This document shows positions 337 through 7,869 of a stretch of DNA of 15,588 nucleotides, in pieces. Position numbers and translations under genes: made by a program. Where the stretch lies: positions 1-15,588 of the forward strand of contig JALZWJ010000146.1 in the NCBI GenBank assembly GCA_023300065.1, in the 5' to 3' direction. The stretch is from Akkermansiaceae bacterium (GTDB lineage Bacteria; Verrucomicrobiota; Verrucomicrobiia; Verrucomicrobiales; Akkermansiaceae). Below the pieces are notes generated by a model that ran no database searches, had not been told where the DNA came from, and saw only the letters and a program-made list of their open reading frames with translations. The stretch's first letter is position 1. Each line of letters begins with the position of its first letter.

Positions 337-354
337 TTTGATGTTTTAGAAATA

Positions 355-390
355 AAAAACCCGGCACTGTCAGGGACAGGCCGGGTTTTT
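355..390. terminator. Bidirectional intrinsic terminator
   Basis: AAAAACCCGGC (355-365) pairs perfectly with GCCGGGTTTTT (380-390). An inner stem CTGTC/GACAG (367-371 with 375-379) closes on a 3-base loop, leaving one bulged A at 366. The stem is flanked by A-tracts on the left and T-tracts on the right, so it can end the + strand gene stopping at 336 and the - strand selenoprotein gene stopping at 418. Confidence 0.9.
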
Positions 391-417: not shown

Positions 418-981
418 TTAGAGTGGGCTACTTGTCTTAGTAGCAGTCTTGATGACTGACTTACGATTTGCGGTCATTTTACCGATCTTTTCCTCGTCGA
501 AGGAACCGGTAGAGGCCATGAGAAGGGTAATGTTGCCTTCGTTTACGAAGGCAGCACTGACTTCATCTAACTTTTCGAGATCGGCACGCAATCTCTCGTT
601 AGTCTGTGCTCATGTGCCACCGCTGATTGCGATGCTGTAGGTTTCTTGTGGGGAGGTAATCTCCTTTTTGCCGACACGCTCGACTTTGAGGCCGGACTTT
701 TCGAAGGCCTTACGGACGGTTCCTCGACTGATTTTTACGTCGTCTCCTGAAGTAGTGACGAAAGCAGTCATGCCGGAAAGCATGACTTTATCGACGCCTT
801 CCATTTTAGTCAAAGCCGCACGGGCTTTGCTTGCTGCGCCTCAACCACCACCGCTGAAGGACACGTTGTATCCTTGGATAGTTGATGCGGCGACCTCTTC
901 AGCAGTAGCCGAAGTCACCAAGGCGACTGGGGCGATTGCTCCGAAGGCACACAACATGCCAAATCTGATTTTTGAATTCAT
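418..981 (-). CDS. Exported selenoprotein with two HMA (MerP-like) repeats, Sec at residues 47 and 124
   Basis: One frame runs from ATG (979-981) to TAA (418-420), 187 codons, interrupted only by TGA at 841-843 and 610-612. Residues 1-27 form a Sec signal peptide (basic N-terminus, hydrophobic core, cleavage after A-T-A). Two repeats follow, about residues 38-104 and 115-180. Each begins Y-x4-S-G-G-(G/T)-U, offset by 77 residues, then a helix and, in repeat 1, L-x-K-M-E-G-V-D-K-V, as in heavy-metal-associated domains such as MerP. There HMA proteins have G-M-T-C-x-x-C. Here Sec takes the first Cys position, and the second Cys is Ala in repeat 1 and Thr in repeat 2. The only Cys (residue 11) lies in the signal peptide. 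Metal binding or selenol redox chemistry in the periplasm is inferred; the true role is unknown. The gene is monocistronic, between the rpsU terminator and the terminator at 355-390. The start fits the signal peptide, though no clear Shine-Dalgarno is seen. Stop-only translation would leave a 46-residue stub. Confidence 0.85.
577..612 (-). promoter_or_regulatory. Second UGA (Sec124) with bacterial SECIS-like hairpin
   Basis: The TGA codon is 610-612 read on the minus strand. Starting 15 nt after it, the mRNA forms GAGAUUG (595-589), loop CGUGC (588-584), CGAUCUC (583-577): a 7-bp stem with one U-G wobble and a 5-nt loop. The loop has the same sequence as the one after the first UGA although the stem sequences differ, and it starts 22 nt after the UGA instead of 19. 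A shared loop on unrelated stems is what a common SelB binding site would require. Confidence 0.78.
811..843 (-). promoter_or_regulatory. First UGA (Sec47) with bacterial SECIS-like hairpin
   Basis: The TGA codon is 841-843 read on the minus strand. Starting 12 nt after it, the mRNA forms CAAAGCC (829-823), loop CGUGC (822-818), GGCUUUG (817-811): a perfect 7-bp stem with a 5-nt loop. The loop's second base is G and is followed by U. Bacterial SECIS elements need a hairpin inside the reading frame just 3' of UGA with a G among the first loop bases, and SelB of E. coli contacts a loop G and U. The loop begins 19 nt after the UGA, within the usual range. The function is inferred from this fit. 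Confidence 0.78.
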
Positions 982-1051
982 ATCAGGGGTAGTTTAGCGT
1001 GTTCATTGATTCCTGCAAGGGGTGTTTTACGGATGAGGCGCTCCGCGCGAT

Positions 1052-1513: not shown

Positions 1514-1746
1514 GCCCCCATTTTTGGGAAAAGTGAGGATTTTGTAAATGAGGCGGCAGTCTGGCCGACTCTGGCTGACGATTCTCATTTGGTGTGCGGG
1601 GCTCTTTAGGTGTTCTGAGATGACAGTTTTGCCGCTGGGTGCCGTTCTATGTTGTGAACTCGGGCTGTTTGTAAATGGAATCGACAGTGGCCTGTATGCT
1701 GTCAAAGTCTCCTGACAGTCGGTTTTCGTTACTTTGGTCACGCTCT

Positions 1747-4089
1747 ATGCTCAAGCTCCCATCTTTTATCTCCTCCACTTGTGCCGCGTTTGGCCTGAGT
1801 GTTATTGTTTCGATGTCTGCTCCCGCCGCGGAGTTTGAGCTGGTGGGGCGGGAGATGACGCGGCTCCTGCAAAACGGGCATTACGCGCGTTTGCCATTTA
1901 ATGAGGATCTGAGTGTTCGTTTTTTGGAGCGCTATTTATCGCACCTAGATGGGGAGAAGACCTATTTCTTGCTTTCGGAGGTTGAGGAGTTCCGGCGCCT
2001 TTATGAGCGTAGCTTGCATGATCATATTAGTACGAAGACTTTTATGCCAATTGCGGAGCGGCTCTTTGATGTTTATCGGAGAAGGGTCACGGGACGGGTG
2101 TCCTACGTGCGCCAACTTTTGGAGATTGATCAATTCGATTTCGATGAGGAGCGCTCTGTGATGCGTGATCGTGAAGATGCGGAGTGGCCGGTGGATGGGC
2201 CTGCGATCCAGAAAATCTGGAGAGAGTCATTAGAGGAAATGATTCTCAGCGAGGAGGTTTACCGTGAACGCCTCCAAGCCCGCGCTCTAGCTACGGGGAA
2301 GCTAGATCCTTTTCGTGATGGCCCCACGGCGAAGGAAAAGGTCTCGCTTCGGTTTGATCGACTTCTGAAAACGGTCGAAGGGGTTAATCAGGAGGATATT
2401 ACAAATTATTTTCTGAGCGCTGTTACGAATGCTTATGATCCACATAGCGAGTATTTTAGCGCGAATGAGATGGAGCAGTTTAGGATCGATGTGAGTAATG
2501 CTCTTGTCGGGATCGGAGCGCGGCTCTCGATGAATGATCAGGGGGAGACGGAGATTTACGGTATCGTGAATGATGGACCGGCGGATCGCCATGGTGAGCT
2601 TGAGCTGGGTGACCGGGTTATCGCGATTTCACCCGAGAATGACGGGGTGTGGGAGGATATTATGTTCAAGCCCATCAATAAGGTCATTGAGTATATTTTA
2701 GGGGAAGAAGGTTCACCTGTGGGGCTTCGGGTGAACCGGGAGCTTGATGGAGTAGATGAGGTTCTAGAAATTGTGATTCCACGTGGAGTGGTCACGCTGG
2801 AGGATGATCTGGTCTCGGCTAAAATCTACGAATACAAGAAGGTGATAGAGGTGGAGATTGAGGAGATTGAGGAGATTGAGGAGATTGAGGAGATTGAAGG
2901 AGTTGAAGGAGTTGAAGGAGTTGAGGAGGTTGAGGAGGTTGAGGAGGTTGAGGAAGTGGTGGAGTTTACGAAGTTGGCGGTCATCACGGTGCCTTCATTT
3001 TATTTTGATTTTGATGATGTTGGAAATCGTGTTTCGGTCGATGTGGAGCGATTGTTGAAGAGGCTAAAGACGGAGGAGATTGATGGGATCATGCTCGATC
3101 TCCGTGATAATGGAGGGGGCTCGCTGTCCGAAGTGCAGCGGATGACGGGTTTATTTATGGGTCGAGGTCCCGTGGTGCAGGTGAAGGCGCTTAATGGGCA
3201 GGTTCGCTCGTTGAAATCGCTCCACCGTAAGCCGCTTTATGATGGCCCGCTCATCGTCCTTACTAACCGGGGGAGCGCCTCGGCGACTGAGATTTTAGCG
3301 GGGGCATTGCAGGACTATAATCGAGCGGTGATCGTGGGGGCGGCGGCGACTTATGGAAAAGGGACAGTTCAAAAAACGATGGATATCGCTGACTACATGC
3401 CCATCTTTTCTGATCGCGCACGGGCGGGTTGGTTGAAGCTTACTTTCCAAAAATACTACCGTGTTTCTGGGAGTTCAGTGCAGATTAAAGGGGTGGTTCC
3501 TGATTTGATTCTTCCTGACATGAGCGATGCTTATGAGGTTGGCGAGGGCTACGAGAAATACGCACTTCCGCATGATGTGATTCGCGCGGCAGATGCTTTT
3601 AAGCCCCGTGAGAGATCGGGGCTTTTTATCGCTCATCTCCAAGATCGGAGTCGACAAAGGATGGAGAACGAACCGTATTTTAAATACCTTTTGAGTGATA
3701 TTGGGCGAGCTAAGGATGAGATTGCGGAGAATGTGATATCGCTGAAGCGTGAGACTCGTCTCGCGCAACTCGATGAAAGTGAACAGCGCCGAAAAACCCG
3801 CAAGGAAGAGCGACAGGCCCGCTTCGCGACCGTGGAAGAACTTGATCAAAAAACCTTTAAGATTTTCCGTCTCAAGCTTGATGATCTTGATCGTGACGAG
3901 CTTCCGCTTTTGGATTTTGATGATCACTCGGAGGATCACATACGTGAGGCCGTTGATGAACTCGCGGATTTAGAGGAGTCGCTGAAGTGGCCGAGTGGGA
4001 TTGATGCTGTAAAGCGAGAGGGCTTAGGAGTCCTCCATGATTTGGTCGATGCCGCACGAGCTGGGCGGGCTACAGGCGGGATTAAGTAG
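1747..4089 (+). CDS. prc: Carboxy-terminal processing (tail-specific) protease, S41A family
   Basis: A 780-residue exported serine protease of the Prc/Tsp type, which clips or degrades periplasmic proteins from their C-termini. From ATG 1747 the first 28 residues are a signal peptide ending A-P-A-A. An ATG in frame at 1675 would prepend 24 residues, so 1747 is preferred. Order: helical N-terminal Prc domain (about 30-245, with F-L-E-R-Y-L-S-H-L-D and Y-D-P-H-S-E-Y-F), PDZ (about 249-345), an acidic tandem repeat (369-404), the S41 catalytic domain (about 407-580) and a charged C-terminal tail. The Ser-Lys dyad is visible: S512 in G-S-A-S-A-T-E and K538 in Y-G-K-G-T-V-Q, one residue further apart than I count in E. 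coli Prc. D-L-R-D-N-G-G-G is also present. The repeat sits between PDZ and protease domains, where the two communicate. E. coli Prc is 682 residues, so this one is long. The gene stands alone, convergent with the cytochrome gene. Confidence 0.9.
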   Translation: MLKLPSFISSTCAAFGLSVIVSMSAPAAEFELVGREMTRLLQNGHYARLPFNEDLSVRFLERYLSHLDGEKTYFLLSEVEEFRRLYERSLHDHISTKTFMPIAERLFDVYRRRVTGRVSYVRQLLEIDQFDFDEERSVMRDREDAEWPVDGPAIQKIWRESLEEMILSEEVYRERLQARALATGKLDPFRDGPTAKEKVSLRFDRLLKTVEGVNQEDITNYFLSAVTNAYDPHSEYFSANEMEQFRIDVSNALVGIGARLSMNDQGETEIYGIVNDGPADRHGELELGDRVIAISPENDGVWEDIMFKPINKVIEYILGEEGSPVGLRVNRELDGVDEVLEIVIPRGVVTLEDDLVSAKIYEYKKVIEVEIEEIEEIEEIEEIEGVEGVEGVEEVEEVEEVEEVVEFTKLAVITVPSFYFDFDDVGNRVSVDVERLLKRLKTEEIDGIMLDLRDNGGGSLSEVQRMTGLFMGRGPVVQVKALNGQVRSLKSLHRKPLYDGPLIVLTNRGSASATEILAGALQDYNRAVIVGAAATYGKGTVQKTMDIADYMPIFSDRARAGWLKLTFQKYYRVSGSSVQIKGVVPDLILPDMSDAYEVGEGYEKYALPHDVIRAADAFKPRERSGLFIAHLQDRSRQRMENEPYFKYLLSDIGRAKDEIAENVISLKRETRLAQLDESEQRRKTRKEERQARFATVEELDQKTFKIFRLKLDDLDRDELPLLDFDDHSEDHIREAVDELADLEESLKWPSGIDAVKREGLGVLHDLVDAARAGRATGGIK
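2851..2958 (+). repeat. 12-unit, 9-bp in-frame tandem repeat coding an acidic strip
   Basis: Twelve consecutive 9-base units inside the S41 protease gene: GTGGAGATT, then GAGGAGATT four times, GAAGGAGTT three times, GAGGAGGTT three times, and GAGGAAGTG. They code for V-E-I, E-E-I x4, E-G-V x3, E-E-V x4 (residues 369-404). Identical units are grouped in blocks, which is the pattern left by slippage or unequal exchange. The repeat keeps the frame. Confidence 0.95.
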
Positions 4090-4148: not shown

Positions 4149-6095
4149 CTACTCGGTTGGTCGCGGGCAATTTGCAGGTTTCCCTTTGAGGCTCTGCCAT
4201 TCTTGCGTCCAGGCCTTCGATTCGCGGATGAGTAAACCAAGGTTGGTGATGTTAAAGTCGCTTTTCTTGAGTTCTCCAGCGAGCCATTCGAGGAGGTCAG
4301 CATGTTCTGGAAGAGGGTCGCTCGTTCCTAGAGAGTGAGCGAGGGGGGAGCCAAAGTGCCTTCTCCAAATCTCATTAGCGAGAGAGCGGGACAAGAGGTC
4401 CTTGTTCAGGCTTTGTGCGAATTTGAGGCGGTTTTTAAATTTGCGTGGTTCCTGTGAGTTCGCCTCGCGCTCTGCCTCCGTCTCTGTTTTTTCGGCCATC
4501 ACTAAGTAAGCTGGCAAGGCGTCTTCTGTCTTGAGGAGTTTTCGCCCTAGGCTTAGGATGCGTGCTTGGCGTTCTTTTTCTCCCTTTCCAAAGTGCCGTT
4601 GATAGAAGTCGCGGAGATCTCCGCCTTCTTGGTAGGATTTTACGAGGCTTGTTCCATCGAAGATTTGCCGAACTCCAATCGGGGTTAAGACATCAGCGTA
4701 GAGTTGGAATTCATCGAGTAAGAGTCCCTTGCCTGAGACGACTAAGGCCTCGTTCTTAGGTAAGACTGATTTCATGAGCTCAGTGGCCGTGGTCTCCATT
4801 TTGACGGGGAAGCCATTTAAATAGATTTGTATCCCTGAGGCGAGGCGGGTGCCGTCATAACTCACGGCGACATGGGCCCAGCGATGTGGTGCGATTTGTG
4901 GTAATTGTGAAGTCGCGGCCATTGCCAGTTGTGGCCAGAAACGGGTCCAGCGTGCTTGGAGTTTTCCGCCCATTACGCGGAACTCGAAGCCTCGCTCGCG
5001 CGATCCAATTGTGACGATTGGAGTATCGTCCAGTGCTTCTGGTCCGAGCTTAATCCAAGTTGAAATTGTGAAGCGATCTAACTCGCTGCTCCCTGGGAGT
5101 TCCGTCAAGATGAGTTGGTTCAGGCCATTGAAAAACAAGCCCTGTCCATGGATGCCATCGCCCGCGGTGAGGTCCTTGCCATCTGCCTTTACCGAGCCCA
5201 TGGGGGCGAGGTTGTGGAGGTGGCCGCCCTCGAAGGAGTAGGCTGCGACTAGCCCGGGTAAAGATGGGACGCCCTCGTCGAGGGCGAGCCAGTTAAGGTA
5301 ATCATCATCATCTGCTGCGGCGCTTTTTGATGCGTCTACCACCGCCGCTTTGAGTTCCTTGATCCTCATCGCTTCTTCCTCGCTGACTTTGACTAAGAGA
5401 GGGGGGAGGGCCTTGGGCAGATGATCGTAGGGGGTTGTAAAAAGATCGGCTAATTCTTGGTAGCGAGAGTGTGGCCATTTTTCGCTCGGATGATCGTGGC
5501 AGCTTGCGCACTCAATTCTTAGCCCTAGGAATTCTCGGGCCACCTTAGTCGCTCGCCAATGCGGAGTGTCGTCGCCTTGACGTAGGTAACCAGTGGAGAC
5601 CGCCCGCATTTTGTCCGGCATTAAATCGCCCGCTAAGAGGTCTACGACTGATGCGGTAAACATGGCCTGAGGGGCCTCACGTGGTTCGGCCTTTTCTGGG
5701 GCTGATTTTAGGAAGTCATCGATCGAGTTGCCCTCCACTTTACGTAAAGGCGTCTCGGCCCAGTGCGAGTCCATGAGGCGTCCTTGCTCGACCCATTTTT
5801 TTAAAAGCTCGGGGGTTTGGATGTCCTCTTTATGAGCATGGAGGACGTCCCATCCGGCGGGGTCATGGAGAGGGATGTCAGTGTGGCAGGAGACGCAGTT
5901 CTCAATTAAAATCGGCCGGACTTCTGTTGAGAAAGAGATTCGAGGTGCCTCGACAGGTCTACGAGGCTTCACTTCCGTGGAGTCGTTCTTACAAGCAGTC
6001 AAGGCAAACAGGGGGAGGGGGAGCCAGATCAATCGCACGCCGAAAGCTAAGATGGAATTGTCGCTGAGGTCAATCCTGAGACGTTGGTTCGTCAT
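4149..6095 (-). CDS. Di-heme planctomycete-type cytochrome c lipoprotein with LamG domain (PSCyt1/DUF1549/DUF1553 type)
   Basis: Encodes 648 residues from ATG 6093-6095; a TTG nine bases upstream is possible but less likely. It begins with a lipoprotein signal, lipobox L-T-A-C with lipidation Cys35. A first heme motif C-V-S-C-H (67-71) follows V-R-P-I-L-I-E-N, the hallmark of planctomycete cytochrome c (PSCyt1). A second, C-A-S-C-H-D-H-P (196-203), lies in a DUF1549-like part. A LamG/concanavalin-like beta sandwich (about 280-470) starts near L-V-A-A-Y-S-F-E and includes F-T-I-S-T-W-I-K-L and A-H-V-A-V-S-Y-D-G-T. The C-terminus has the start of DUF1553 (L-A-N-E-I-W-R-R-H-F-G) but ends about 75 residues later, shorter than usual for that domain. 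In PVC bacteria such proteins are abundant, often beside DUF1501 sulfatase-like partners and linked to polysaccharide use; no partner is seen here. Electron transfer or glycan binding at the outer envelope is inferred. It is divergent from the barrel gene at 6403. Confidence 0.82.
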   Translation of the reverse strand: MTNQRLRIDLSDNSILAFGVRLIWLPLPLFALTACKNDSTEVKPRRPVEAPRISFSTEVRPILIENCVSCHTDIPLHDPAGWDVLHAHKEDIQTPELLKKWVEQGRLMDSHWAETPLRKVEGNSIDDFLKSAPEKAEPREAPQAMFTASVVDLLAGDLMPDKMRAVSTGYLRQGDDTPHWRATKVAREFLGLRIECASCHDHPSEKWPHSRYQELADLFTTPYDHLPKALPPLLVKVSEEEAMRIKELKAAVVDASKSAAADDDDYLNWLALDEGVPSLPGLVAAYSFEGGHLHNLAPMGSVKADGKDLTAGDGIHGQGLFFNGLNQLILTELPGSSELDRFTISTWIKLGPEALDDTPIVTIGSRERGFEFRVMGGKLQARWTRFWPQLAMAATSQLPQIAPHRWAHVAVSYDGTRLASGIQIYLNGFPVKMETTATELMKSVLPKNEALVVSGKGLLLDEFQLYADVLTPIGVRQIFDGTSLVKSYQEGGDLRDFYQRHFGKGEKERQARILSLGRKLLKTEDALPAYLVMAEKTETEAEREANSQEPRKFKNRLKFAQSLNKDLLSRSLANEIWRRHFGSPLAHSLGTSDPLPEHADLLEWLAGELKKSDFNITNLGLLIRESKAWTQEWQSLKGKPANCPRPTE

Positions 6096-6402: not shown

Positions 6403-7869
6403 ATGAAAAAACAACTCTGTTTATTCGCCGGTCTTACGGCTCACGCACTTGCGGCTTCTTCCGCAGGAGATTATTTAAATGCACTTTCTCTCTCTCCAGC
6501 TCCAGGGTCGCCTTGGGAAGTTACTGGAGCAGCGAGTCTTGGCTTCTCTGAGGGTAACTCAGACAACCTCTCTTATACCCTTCAACTTCTGGCCACTTAT
6601 GAAGAGGGTGCCAATGAGGGATTTGTTGGAGCTGATCACGTTTACTCGGAAAGCAACGGCGCGGCCTCGACGAATAGCTTTCGTGTTTTCGGTCAATATA
6701 ACCGCCTTCTCTCGGAACGAGCCTATGTCGGTGTGCACGGTTCTTACCTCAATGATGAGATCTCAGACATCAAGTATCGTGTCGATCTTGGAGTCGGCCT
6801 TGGTTATTACACAATCAAGAATAGCACCACGAGCCTCTCTTTTGAAGTTGGTCCTGGCATTGCCTGGGAAGAACAAGGCGGTGTGGCGCGTGACTTCGCA
6901 ACCATCCGTTTCTCTGAGCGATTTGAGCACCAGCTTAGCCGCCGCTCTAAGCTTTGGCAGTCCGCCGTTTTTTCTCCAAGAGTCGAAGATTTTAACGATT
7001 ACCTGCTCAACGTAGAGGTCGGTATTGACACTCTTATTTCTCAGCAGTGGGCCGTGCGGACCTTGGTGCGCTACCAGTATGATAGCAGCCCCGCTGCGGG
7101 TCAGCAGTCGGATGATACCACGCTCTCAATGGGTCTCTCTTATGCCCTTGGTGGTTTCTCAGATCCCGGTGCAGATGGTCACCAGCCCCTCAAACCAGAC
7201 AGCGCTGGTCCTGATGCCATCCAGGGTGGTTGGAGCACTTCAGCCGCTCTCGGAGTGGCACTTGCCAAAGGTAACTCGGATAATCTTTCCATCGGTGTCT
7301 CCATTGACAGCGCTTACCGCGAACGGAATCAGGAACTCTTCCTCACTGCGAACTACACCTACGCTGAAGATGAGGGGGATACGAGCGCTGACTCCCTCCG
7401 GGCTTCTGTTCAGTATAACCGTATCCTCAGTGATCGCGCGTTTGTCGGTTCCAGCGTTGGCTTCCTTCGTGATGATATTTCTGACATCACTTACCGTGTC
7501 ACTCCAGCTGTGACTGCTGGTTACTATCTCGTCAAGAATGACGAAATGACTCTGAGTGTCGAAGCTGGACCTGGCTTTACTTTCGAGGAAGTTGCGGGAA
7601 CGACGGATGATTACTTCTCTGCCGTAGCCGTTGAGAAATTCACTTGGGAGCTGAGCGATCGTATGACTCTCAAGCAGAGCTTCGGTGCGGTGTTTGATCC
7701 TACAAACGGTCAGAACTACACTCTCGTGGGCGATGTCTTCCTCGACACCGATATCACCAACAACCTCGCTTGGCGGGTTGCTCTGGGTTGGACTTACGAC
7801 AACGTTCCTGCTTTAGGACTTGGTAAGGACGACACGACTCTCACCAGCGGTATCTCGGTGAAGTTCTAA
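6403..7869 (+). CDS. Outer-membrane beta-barrel with two DUF481-like repeats
   Basis: Encodes 488 residues with a short signal peptide (M-K-K-Q-L-C-L-F-A-G-L-T-A-H-A-L-A-A, cleavage near residue 18-22). The body consists of alternating polar/aromatic beta strands and ends in F, as outer-membrane barrels do for Bam recognition. It is an internal duplication. Copy 1 spans about 38-250 and copy 2 about 276-488, with G-N-S-D-N-L at 51-56 and again at 290-295 (offset 239). Shared blocks include Q-Y-N-R-(L/I)-L-S-(E/D)-R-A, D-(E/D)-I-S-D-I-x-Y-R-V and E-(V/A)-G-P-G. The G-x-x-x-x-G-N-S-D start matches DUF481 / YdiY-like 'salt-induced outer membrane protein' barrels, which normally have a single copy of about 200-250 residues. 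It could be one large barrel or two fused small ones. Many codons end in C, suggesting good expression. A strong terminator follows. Confidence 0.8.
   Translation: MKKQLCLFAGLTAHALAASSAGDYLNALSLSPAPGSPWEVTGAASLGFSEGNSDNLSYTLQLLATYEEGANEGFVGADHVYSESNGAASTNSFRVFGQYNRLLSERAYVGVHGSYLNDEISDIKYRVDLGVGLGYYTIKNSTTSLSFEVGPGIAWEEQGGVARDFATIRFSERFEHQLSRRSKLWQSAVFSPRVEDFNDYLLNVEVGIDTLISQQWAVRTLVRYQYDSSPAAGQQSDDTTLSMGLSYALGGFSDPGADGHQPLKPDSAGPDAIQGGWSTSAALGVALAKGNSDNLSIGVSIDSAYRERNQELFLTANYTYAEDEGDTSADSLRASVQYNRILSDRAFVGSSVGFLRDDISDITYRVTPAVTAGYYLVKNDEMTLSVEAGPGFTFEEVAGTTDDYFSAVAVEKFTWELSDRMTLKQSFGAVFDPTNGQNYTLVGDVFLDTDITNNLAWRVALGWTYDNVPALGLGKDDTTLTSGISVKF

Follow-up and report, generated by a model that had tools for sequence, protein, structure and literature searches.

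A conserved gene of Akkermansiaceae predicted to encode a tandem HMA-like protein with one selenocysteine in each domain

The sequence analysed here (the window) comprises 15,588 nucleotides, read on the forward strand, of contig JALZWJ010000146.1 from a draft genome of an Akkermansiaceae bacterium (GCA_023300065.1). Near its left end, on the minus strand at 418..981, lies a gene of 187 codons with its ATG at 981 and a TAA at 418-420; the plus strand of the same interval is not open in frame 1. The minus-strand translation agrees with the original prediction of a single frame running from ATG to TAA and interrupted by two TGA codons only, at residue 47 (841..843) and residue 124 (610..612), with no further stop. 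As had been claimed, both TGAs follow the shared motif Y-x4-S-G-G-(G/T), and they are spaced 77 residues apart. With TGA translated as selenocysteine (Sec, U), the frame specifies 187 residues followed by TAA, and the proposed coherence of this protein is borne out by two repeats of about 67 residues; the signal peptide ascribed to it is better described as a signal-like N-terminus, recognized by eye, covering residues 1 to about 27 (901..981, minus strand). From this feature, and from lipobox-like sequences in some copies of the two-Sec protein, we predict that the protein is probably exported.

Inspection by eye of the flanking sequence revealed a candidate promoter (991..1018, minus strand) composed of a -35 element TTGCAG and a -10 element TAAACT and ending 9 nt before the ATG. 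A -10-like element placed about 9 nt ahead of the start codon suggests a nearly leaderless mRNA. The sequence CTTGC occurs upstream of the gene in 21 of 23 same-genus copies. A candidate intrinsic terminator, also assigned by eye, lies 3' of the stop codon (352..390, minus strand), and similar hairpins follow the stop codon in relatives; a scan for consensus promoters and terminators listed neither this element nor the candidate promoter. Neighbours of the gene in the window are ribosomal protein S21, a tail-specific protease and one ORF without a Pfam match, and no mer gene occurs among the 10 window ORFs scanned. When 16 loci were compared, neighbour clusters common to at least three loci were restricted to the window's genus, the one exception being two ORF clusters found near the gene, at differing distances, in one g11 genome. 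Neither these 16 loci nor the window ORFs disclosed a conserved metal gene or reductase partner among the neighbours of the two-Sec gene. The tail-specific protease (1675-4086, plus strand) carries a long low-complexity Glu/Ile/Val insert ahead of its S41 domain, and a relative at L016 has a similar Glu-rich insert. Farther along the window, at 6403-7866 on the plus strand, two DUF481 stretches were matched in one protein, apparently by tandem duplication.

The two-Sec gene was found in 51 of the 260 genomes of the window's family, representing five of 16 genera. One of these copies (G225) is truncated where its contig ends and has one TGA in its remaining part; it was left out of the set of 50 considered below. 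A comparison with homologues had been proposed in the original prediction, and in each of the 50 uncut copies the matched stretch contains exactly two TGAs, one at each site, and no other stop, a recurrence far above what chance would give. This count was computed separately from the 50-copy alignment (pairwise identity 23-97%, mean 41%), in which both columns show U in all 50 rows; since the script that extracted the alignment demanded U at both sites, the separate stop count, made without that demand, is the unbiased figure. A contig scan retrieved five relatives, in metagenome-assembled genomes named Verrucomicrobiales or Akkermansiaceae, with 73-78% identity in the best segment and 74-79% across the alignment, and all five have TGA at both sites; these loci apparently also stand among the 50 copies under other handles. 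Among 386 genomes from the order we found four copies in other families (G263, G264, G267 and G271), each with two TGAs, and 387 genomes from the phylum gave full-length matches only in the own genome and in two known carriers, the remaining significant matches being weak, partial and mostly without TGA.

Interrogation of 5.8 billion predicted proteins, with 7998 candidates scored, yielded 12 matches, of which 11 (P0002-P0012) have Trp at both sites. The longest contigs encoding these 11 measure 667-1802 bases, and because they are so short we read the Trp residues as the product of gene calls that take TGA as Trp. P0013, a weak database match having neither Cys nor Trp at the Sec sites, was not counted as a member. 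No Cys form of the two-Sec protein appeared in the genomes of the family, order or phylum or in the protein database searched, and the alternation of TGA with Cys that had been expected at residues 47 and 124 failed to emerge: Sec was invariant in everything searched. The expectation that ordinary gene callers miss the gene did prove right, in that calling with table 11 breaks this conserved protein at its TGAs; such broken calls, and the occurrence of Trp at both sites on short contigs, imply that the selenoproteomes of Verrucomicrobiota are probably underestimated.

Within genus, pooled pN/pS (23 sequences) was 0.37 upstream of the first TGA, 0.42 between the two and 0.37 downstream of the second, and this similar degree of purifying selection in the three segments argues for selection on the protein to its end. 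In a tree that took in four copies from other families (L102-L105), which are outside the 50, neither g9 nor g13 formed a single clade and the g21 copies sat among those of g9, a pattern suggesting that some transfer is possible.

Each of the two TGAs is followed by a SECIS-like hairpin with a 7-bp stem and a 5-nt loop, the loop starting 18 nt after UGA 1 in hairpin 1 (811..829, minus strand) and 21 nt after UGA 2 in hairpin 2 (577..595, minus strand). Both hairpins have a G in the loop in all 50 sequences, and the next position is U in 49 of 50 at site 1 and in 47 of 50 at site 2. The closing pair at site 2 is formed in all 50 sequences by differing combinations (GC in 22, CG in 22, UA in five and AU in one). 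Covariation reached 0.384 in hairpin 1 versus 0.216 in shuffled alignments, and 0.719 versus 0.277 in hairpin 2, values attained by none of 500 shuffles at either site. Sliding the partner strand reduced pairing from 90% at site 1 and 94% at site 2 to 21-54%, and none of the 7-bp hairpins in 70 control windows per site exceeded 67% pairing. Further pair types showed no excess over shuffles (the count was reached by 156 of 500 at site 1 and by 468 of 500 at site 2), nor did double-sided pair changes at site 2 (431 of 500), and the outermost stem pair is formed in only 27 of 50 sequences at site 1 and 33 of 50 at site 2. Folding energy gave no signal at site 1 (mean z -0.31 versus -0.44 in controls) and a moderate one at site 2 (mean z -1.47 versus -0.46). 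At gathering scores, Rfam models matched nothing in the window, and around the gene there were only two matches, both at chance level (E 8.5 and 9.2). An invariant Arg located eight residues after Sec 2 (R132) is encoded by CGT in 47 copies and CGG in three; among the other Arg codons of two-Sec genes, CGT accounts for 50 of 228. As the RNA hairpin constrains this codon, Arg132 is not to be over-read as a catalytic residue.

The genes selA, selB, selC and selD had been named as those to look for in the genome of origin, an assembly that is 65% complete and divided among 414 contigs, and all but the last were recovered at least in part. The tRNA-Sec scored 54.4 bits (cut-off 47), with the anticodon tca assigned by ARAGORN; selA scored 483 bits (cut-off 268); and the start of selB, positioned at a contig end, scored 141.9 bits over model positions 2-108 of 581, below the full-length cut-off. 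For selD this 65% complete assembly gave no acceptable match, only two weak ones that we take to be other enzymes of the superfamily. Among 24 genomes searched, selD exceeded its cut-off in all but the own genome; 21 of these 23 selD-positive genomes carry the two-Sec gene, so that selD is present in 21 of the 21 other carriers tested. SelD itself has one in-frame TGA in 23 of the 24 genomes (for example L122-L125) and is therefore probably a selenoprotein here. Of 30 carriers tested for selB, 27 were over the cut-off and three below it. Among the matches listed, tRNA-Sec was counted by eye in 42 of 51 carriers, the other nine showing none, and in 11 of 209 non-carriers, under a filter (at least 88 nt and a score over the Rfam cut-off) that was set after the table had been seen. 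Matches of 83-86 nt, tRNA-like and scoring about 45-51 bits, are widespread; some of them pass the Rfam tRNA-Sec cut-off, and a match over that cut-off alone is thus no proof of Sec use in these genomes.

The original reading of both TGAs as Sec is supported by the TGA pairs in 50 of 50 uncut copies, covariation in the SECIS-like hairpins, selection along the frame and the presence of Sec machinery; on this comparative sequence evidence we consider residues 47 and 124 almost certain to be selenocysteine. In the mechanism we propose, SelB, tRNA-Sec and the SECIS hairpin after each UGA would direct the insertion of Sec at these two positions.

The two repeats correspond to HMA-like domains: (i) domain 1, containing Sec47 and spanning residues about 38-104 (670..870, minus strand), defined by a match to Pfam HMA (E 0.00077) and by profile comparison; and (ii) domain 2, containing Sec124 and spanning residues about 115-182 (436..639, minus strand), defined by comparison of the family profile with CopA in PDB and by profile comparison. 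The window protein scores 20.2 bits against Pfam HMA (PF00403), below the gathering score of 24.8. In alignment A2, which holds 42 of the 50 copies, the model matches 19 of the 42 members at E <=0.01 (best 1.2e-7), and HydF_tetramer is a competing weak match in four. The HMA-type ancestry put forward for the repeats was confirmed when the family profile was compared with PDB: the domains of CopA from B. subtilis gave the best match (E 1.9e-8), with Sec 2 opposite the first Cys of GMTCxxC, followed by HMA4 (3.6e-5), mercuric reductase (0.0014), CopZ (0.005), and MerP and ZntA (0.01-0.03). A thioredoxin-like fold was matched neither by Pfam in the 42 members nor by the family profile in PDB. In profile comparison Sec 1 likewise falls at the first Cys of Cys-containing HMA domains, and domains 1 and 2, a single-domain Sec protein described below and the Cys HMA domains are mutually homologous, with pairwise profile probabilities of 93.5-98.4%. 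The notion that Sec takes the place of an HMA Cys accordingly stands for the first Cys of CxxC but not for the second, which is lost in both domains: it aligns with a gap in domain 1 and with Thr in domain 2. With this loss, neither domain is a canonical HMA metal site having the two ligands of CxxC.

Besides Met1, the residues invariant in the 42-row alignment are G44, G46, U47, S69, G70, G121, U124 and R132. In the known HMA topology the Sec loop and the S69-G70 turn are at the same end of the domain. In 47 of 50 copies Cys is absent from the stretch that starts 12 residues ahead of Sec 1 and runs to the C-terminus, so that in most copies the two Secs are the only thiol-like groups of the mature part; His residues are few. 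The Sec-Sec spacing is 76 residues in 33 copies and 77 in 17, and Thr occupies the third position after Sec 2 in 43 of 50.

Several known systems resemble this protein in part. The N-terminal HMA pair of CopA, and CopZ (1p6t, 2rml, 6ff2), belong to the same domain family, and CopA is also tandem; they differ in having two Cys per domain and are either segments of an ATPase or chaperones of one domain, whereas the two-Sec protein would be a free protein with one Sec per domain. MerP (TIGR02052), a periplasmic mercury-binding protein with a single domain and CxxC, is similar as an exported HMA domain, and the window protein scores 25.6 bits against its model (cut-off 92.55). A MerP with Sec is named among the selenoproteins of the Global Ocean Sampling paper (PMC2398784). 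The closest curated family is NF041115 (UxxU_metal_bind), in which an HMA-type sequence has Sec as a metal-loop residue; it is matched by 30 of 42 members at E <=0.01 (best 4.5e-9), below cut-off, the window protein itself scoring 20.5 bits (cut-off 95). The NF041115 model, of 74 positions, places both Secs in one UxxU loop, whereas in the two-Sec protein the Secs are split between two domains, neither of which has a second chalcogen ligand; the UxxU motif is absent from the window protein and from all 50 copies. Table 1 of PMC13188914 lists UxxU with two Sec, and also MbdU (NF045648), a metal-binding double selenoprotein with two Secs. MbdU differs from the two-Sec HMA protein in its CU motifs, and NF045648 is not among the 18 NCBIfam families matched by any of the 42 members. 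No NCBIfam model reached its cut-off for the window protein, the one copy tested in full, and no listed match among the 42 members was better than E 4.5e-9. No tandem HMA protein bearing a single Sec in each domain is described in the passages searched of PMC13188914, PMC2398784 and PMC9312934, and a wider search of open-access papers was likewise without one; the original prediction had known of no two-Sec tandem-HMA family, and none was found in the literature searched. With Sec-containing MerP and UxxU HMA proteins in print, Sec in an HMA domain is not itself new; what appears to be new is its occurrence once in each of two tandem domains.

We propose, giving the statement as a whole an even chance, that the gene encodes a small exported two-Sec protein whose selenolate pair would bind one soft metal. 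Each Sec would replace the first metal-binding Cys of one HMA domain, the second Cys being gone, and the two domains would together present their selenolates to one thiophilic ion, for example Cu(I), Hg(II) or Ag(I), with the protein perhaps serving as a periplasmic scavenger or chaperone. HMA ancestry, the location of Sec at a metal-ligand Cys, the Cys-free mature part and the constant Sec-Sec spacing favour a metal role, and the naming of NF041115, with its Sec in the HMA loop, as metal-binding favours metal over redox chemistry; the broken CxxC pair, the scarcity of His and the lack of a conserved metal-gene neighbour count against it. With somewhat less confidence, falling just short of an even chance, we suggest that the two-thiolate site of single HMA domains has given way to one that the two domains share and that consists solely of two selenolates, Sec being obligatory across the sampled tree. 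If true, the protein would be a naturally occurring bis-selenolate trap for metals or else a purely diselenide protein. Many selenoproteins have Cys homologues, and why Sec is retained at positions that Cys could fill is a standing question. Here 47 of 50 copies have no thiol-like residue in the mature part other than the Secs, and Cys forms were not met even at 23% identity, which makes the advantage of Se over S directly testable.

The principal rival, which we consider unlikely though a serious competitor, is an exported two-Sec peroxidase or reductase whose selenols would alternate with an intramolecular diselenide, one Sec resolving the other. HMA domains are known for carrying metals, not for oxidoreductase activity, a thioredoxin-like fold is unmatched and the gene lacks a reductase partner among conserved neighbours, all of which weigh against such chemistry; the absence of any other thiol from the mature part of those 47 copies and the constant distance between the Secs would suit it. 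It also gains from the view given in PMC13188914 that the majority of bacterial selenoproteins presumably have redox functions, and from the Thr three residues after Sec 2 (43 of 50 copies), which resembles the UxxT motifs that the review lists for several selenoproteins.

A store, carrier or sink for selenium, with the Secs serving Se delivery or Se-dependent signalling, would account for the lack of Cys replacements in the sequences searched and for the large overlap between carriers and the Sec trait; we judge it improbable, since two Sec in 187 residues make a poor store and the strictly conserved residues around each Sec point to a defined site. Decoding of the TGAs as tryptophan, or by general readthrough, is far less probable still. 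Trp at both sites in 11 of the 12 database matches is what calling with TGA as Trp would give, and an alternative code is rejected because TGA serves as an ordinary stop in three of 10 window ORFs, in 27 of 90 long neighbour ORFs with the stop in view and in one of 50 family members, and because covarying hairpins follow both TGAs in genomes with Sec machinery. A pseudogene or sequencing error, suggested by two in-frame stops in an incomplete, fragmented draft, is the least credible explanation of all and is rejected, as the same TGA pair recurs in every uncut copy from separate genomes under purifying selection throughout.

Related proteins with a different complement of Sec and Cys were also encountered. 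A single-domain HMA protein with one in-frame TGA is encoded in the own genome (L082; contig C131, 639-992, plus strand), and also at L073, L074, L076 and L117-L121; its motif is G(L/M/V)xU-xx(x)-C, its N-terminus is signal-like and its TGA is followed by a hairpin. Judged from these sequences, it is a one-Sec relative that keeps the Cys partner. At a further locus (L106; contig C47 of genome G213, 5529-6041, minus strand), a tandem HMA protein with two TGAs retains UxxxC in each domain, and could be either an intermediate form or an independent doubling.
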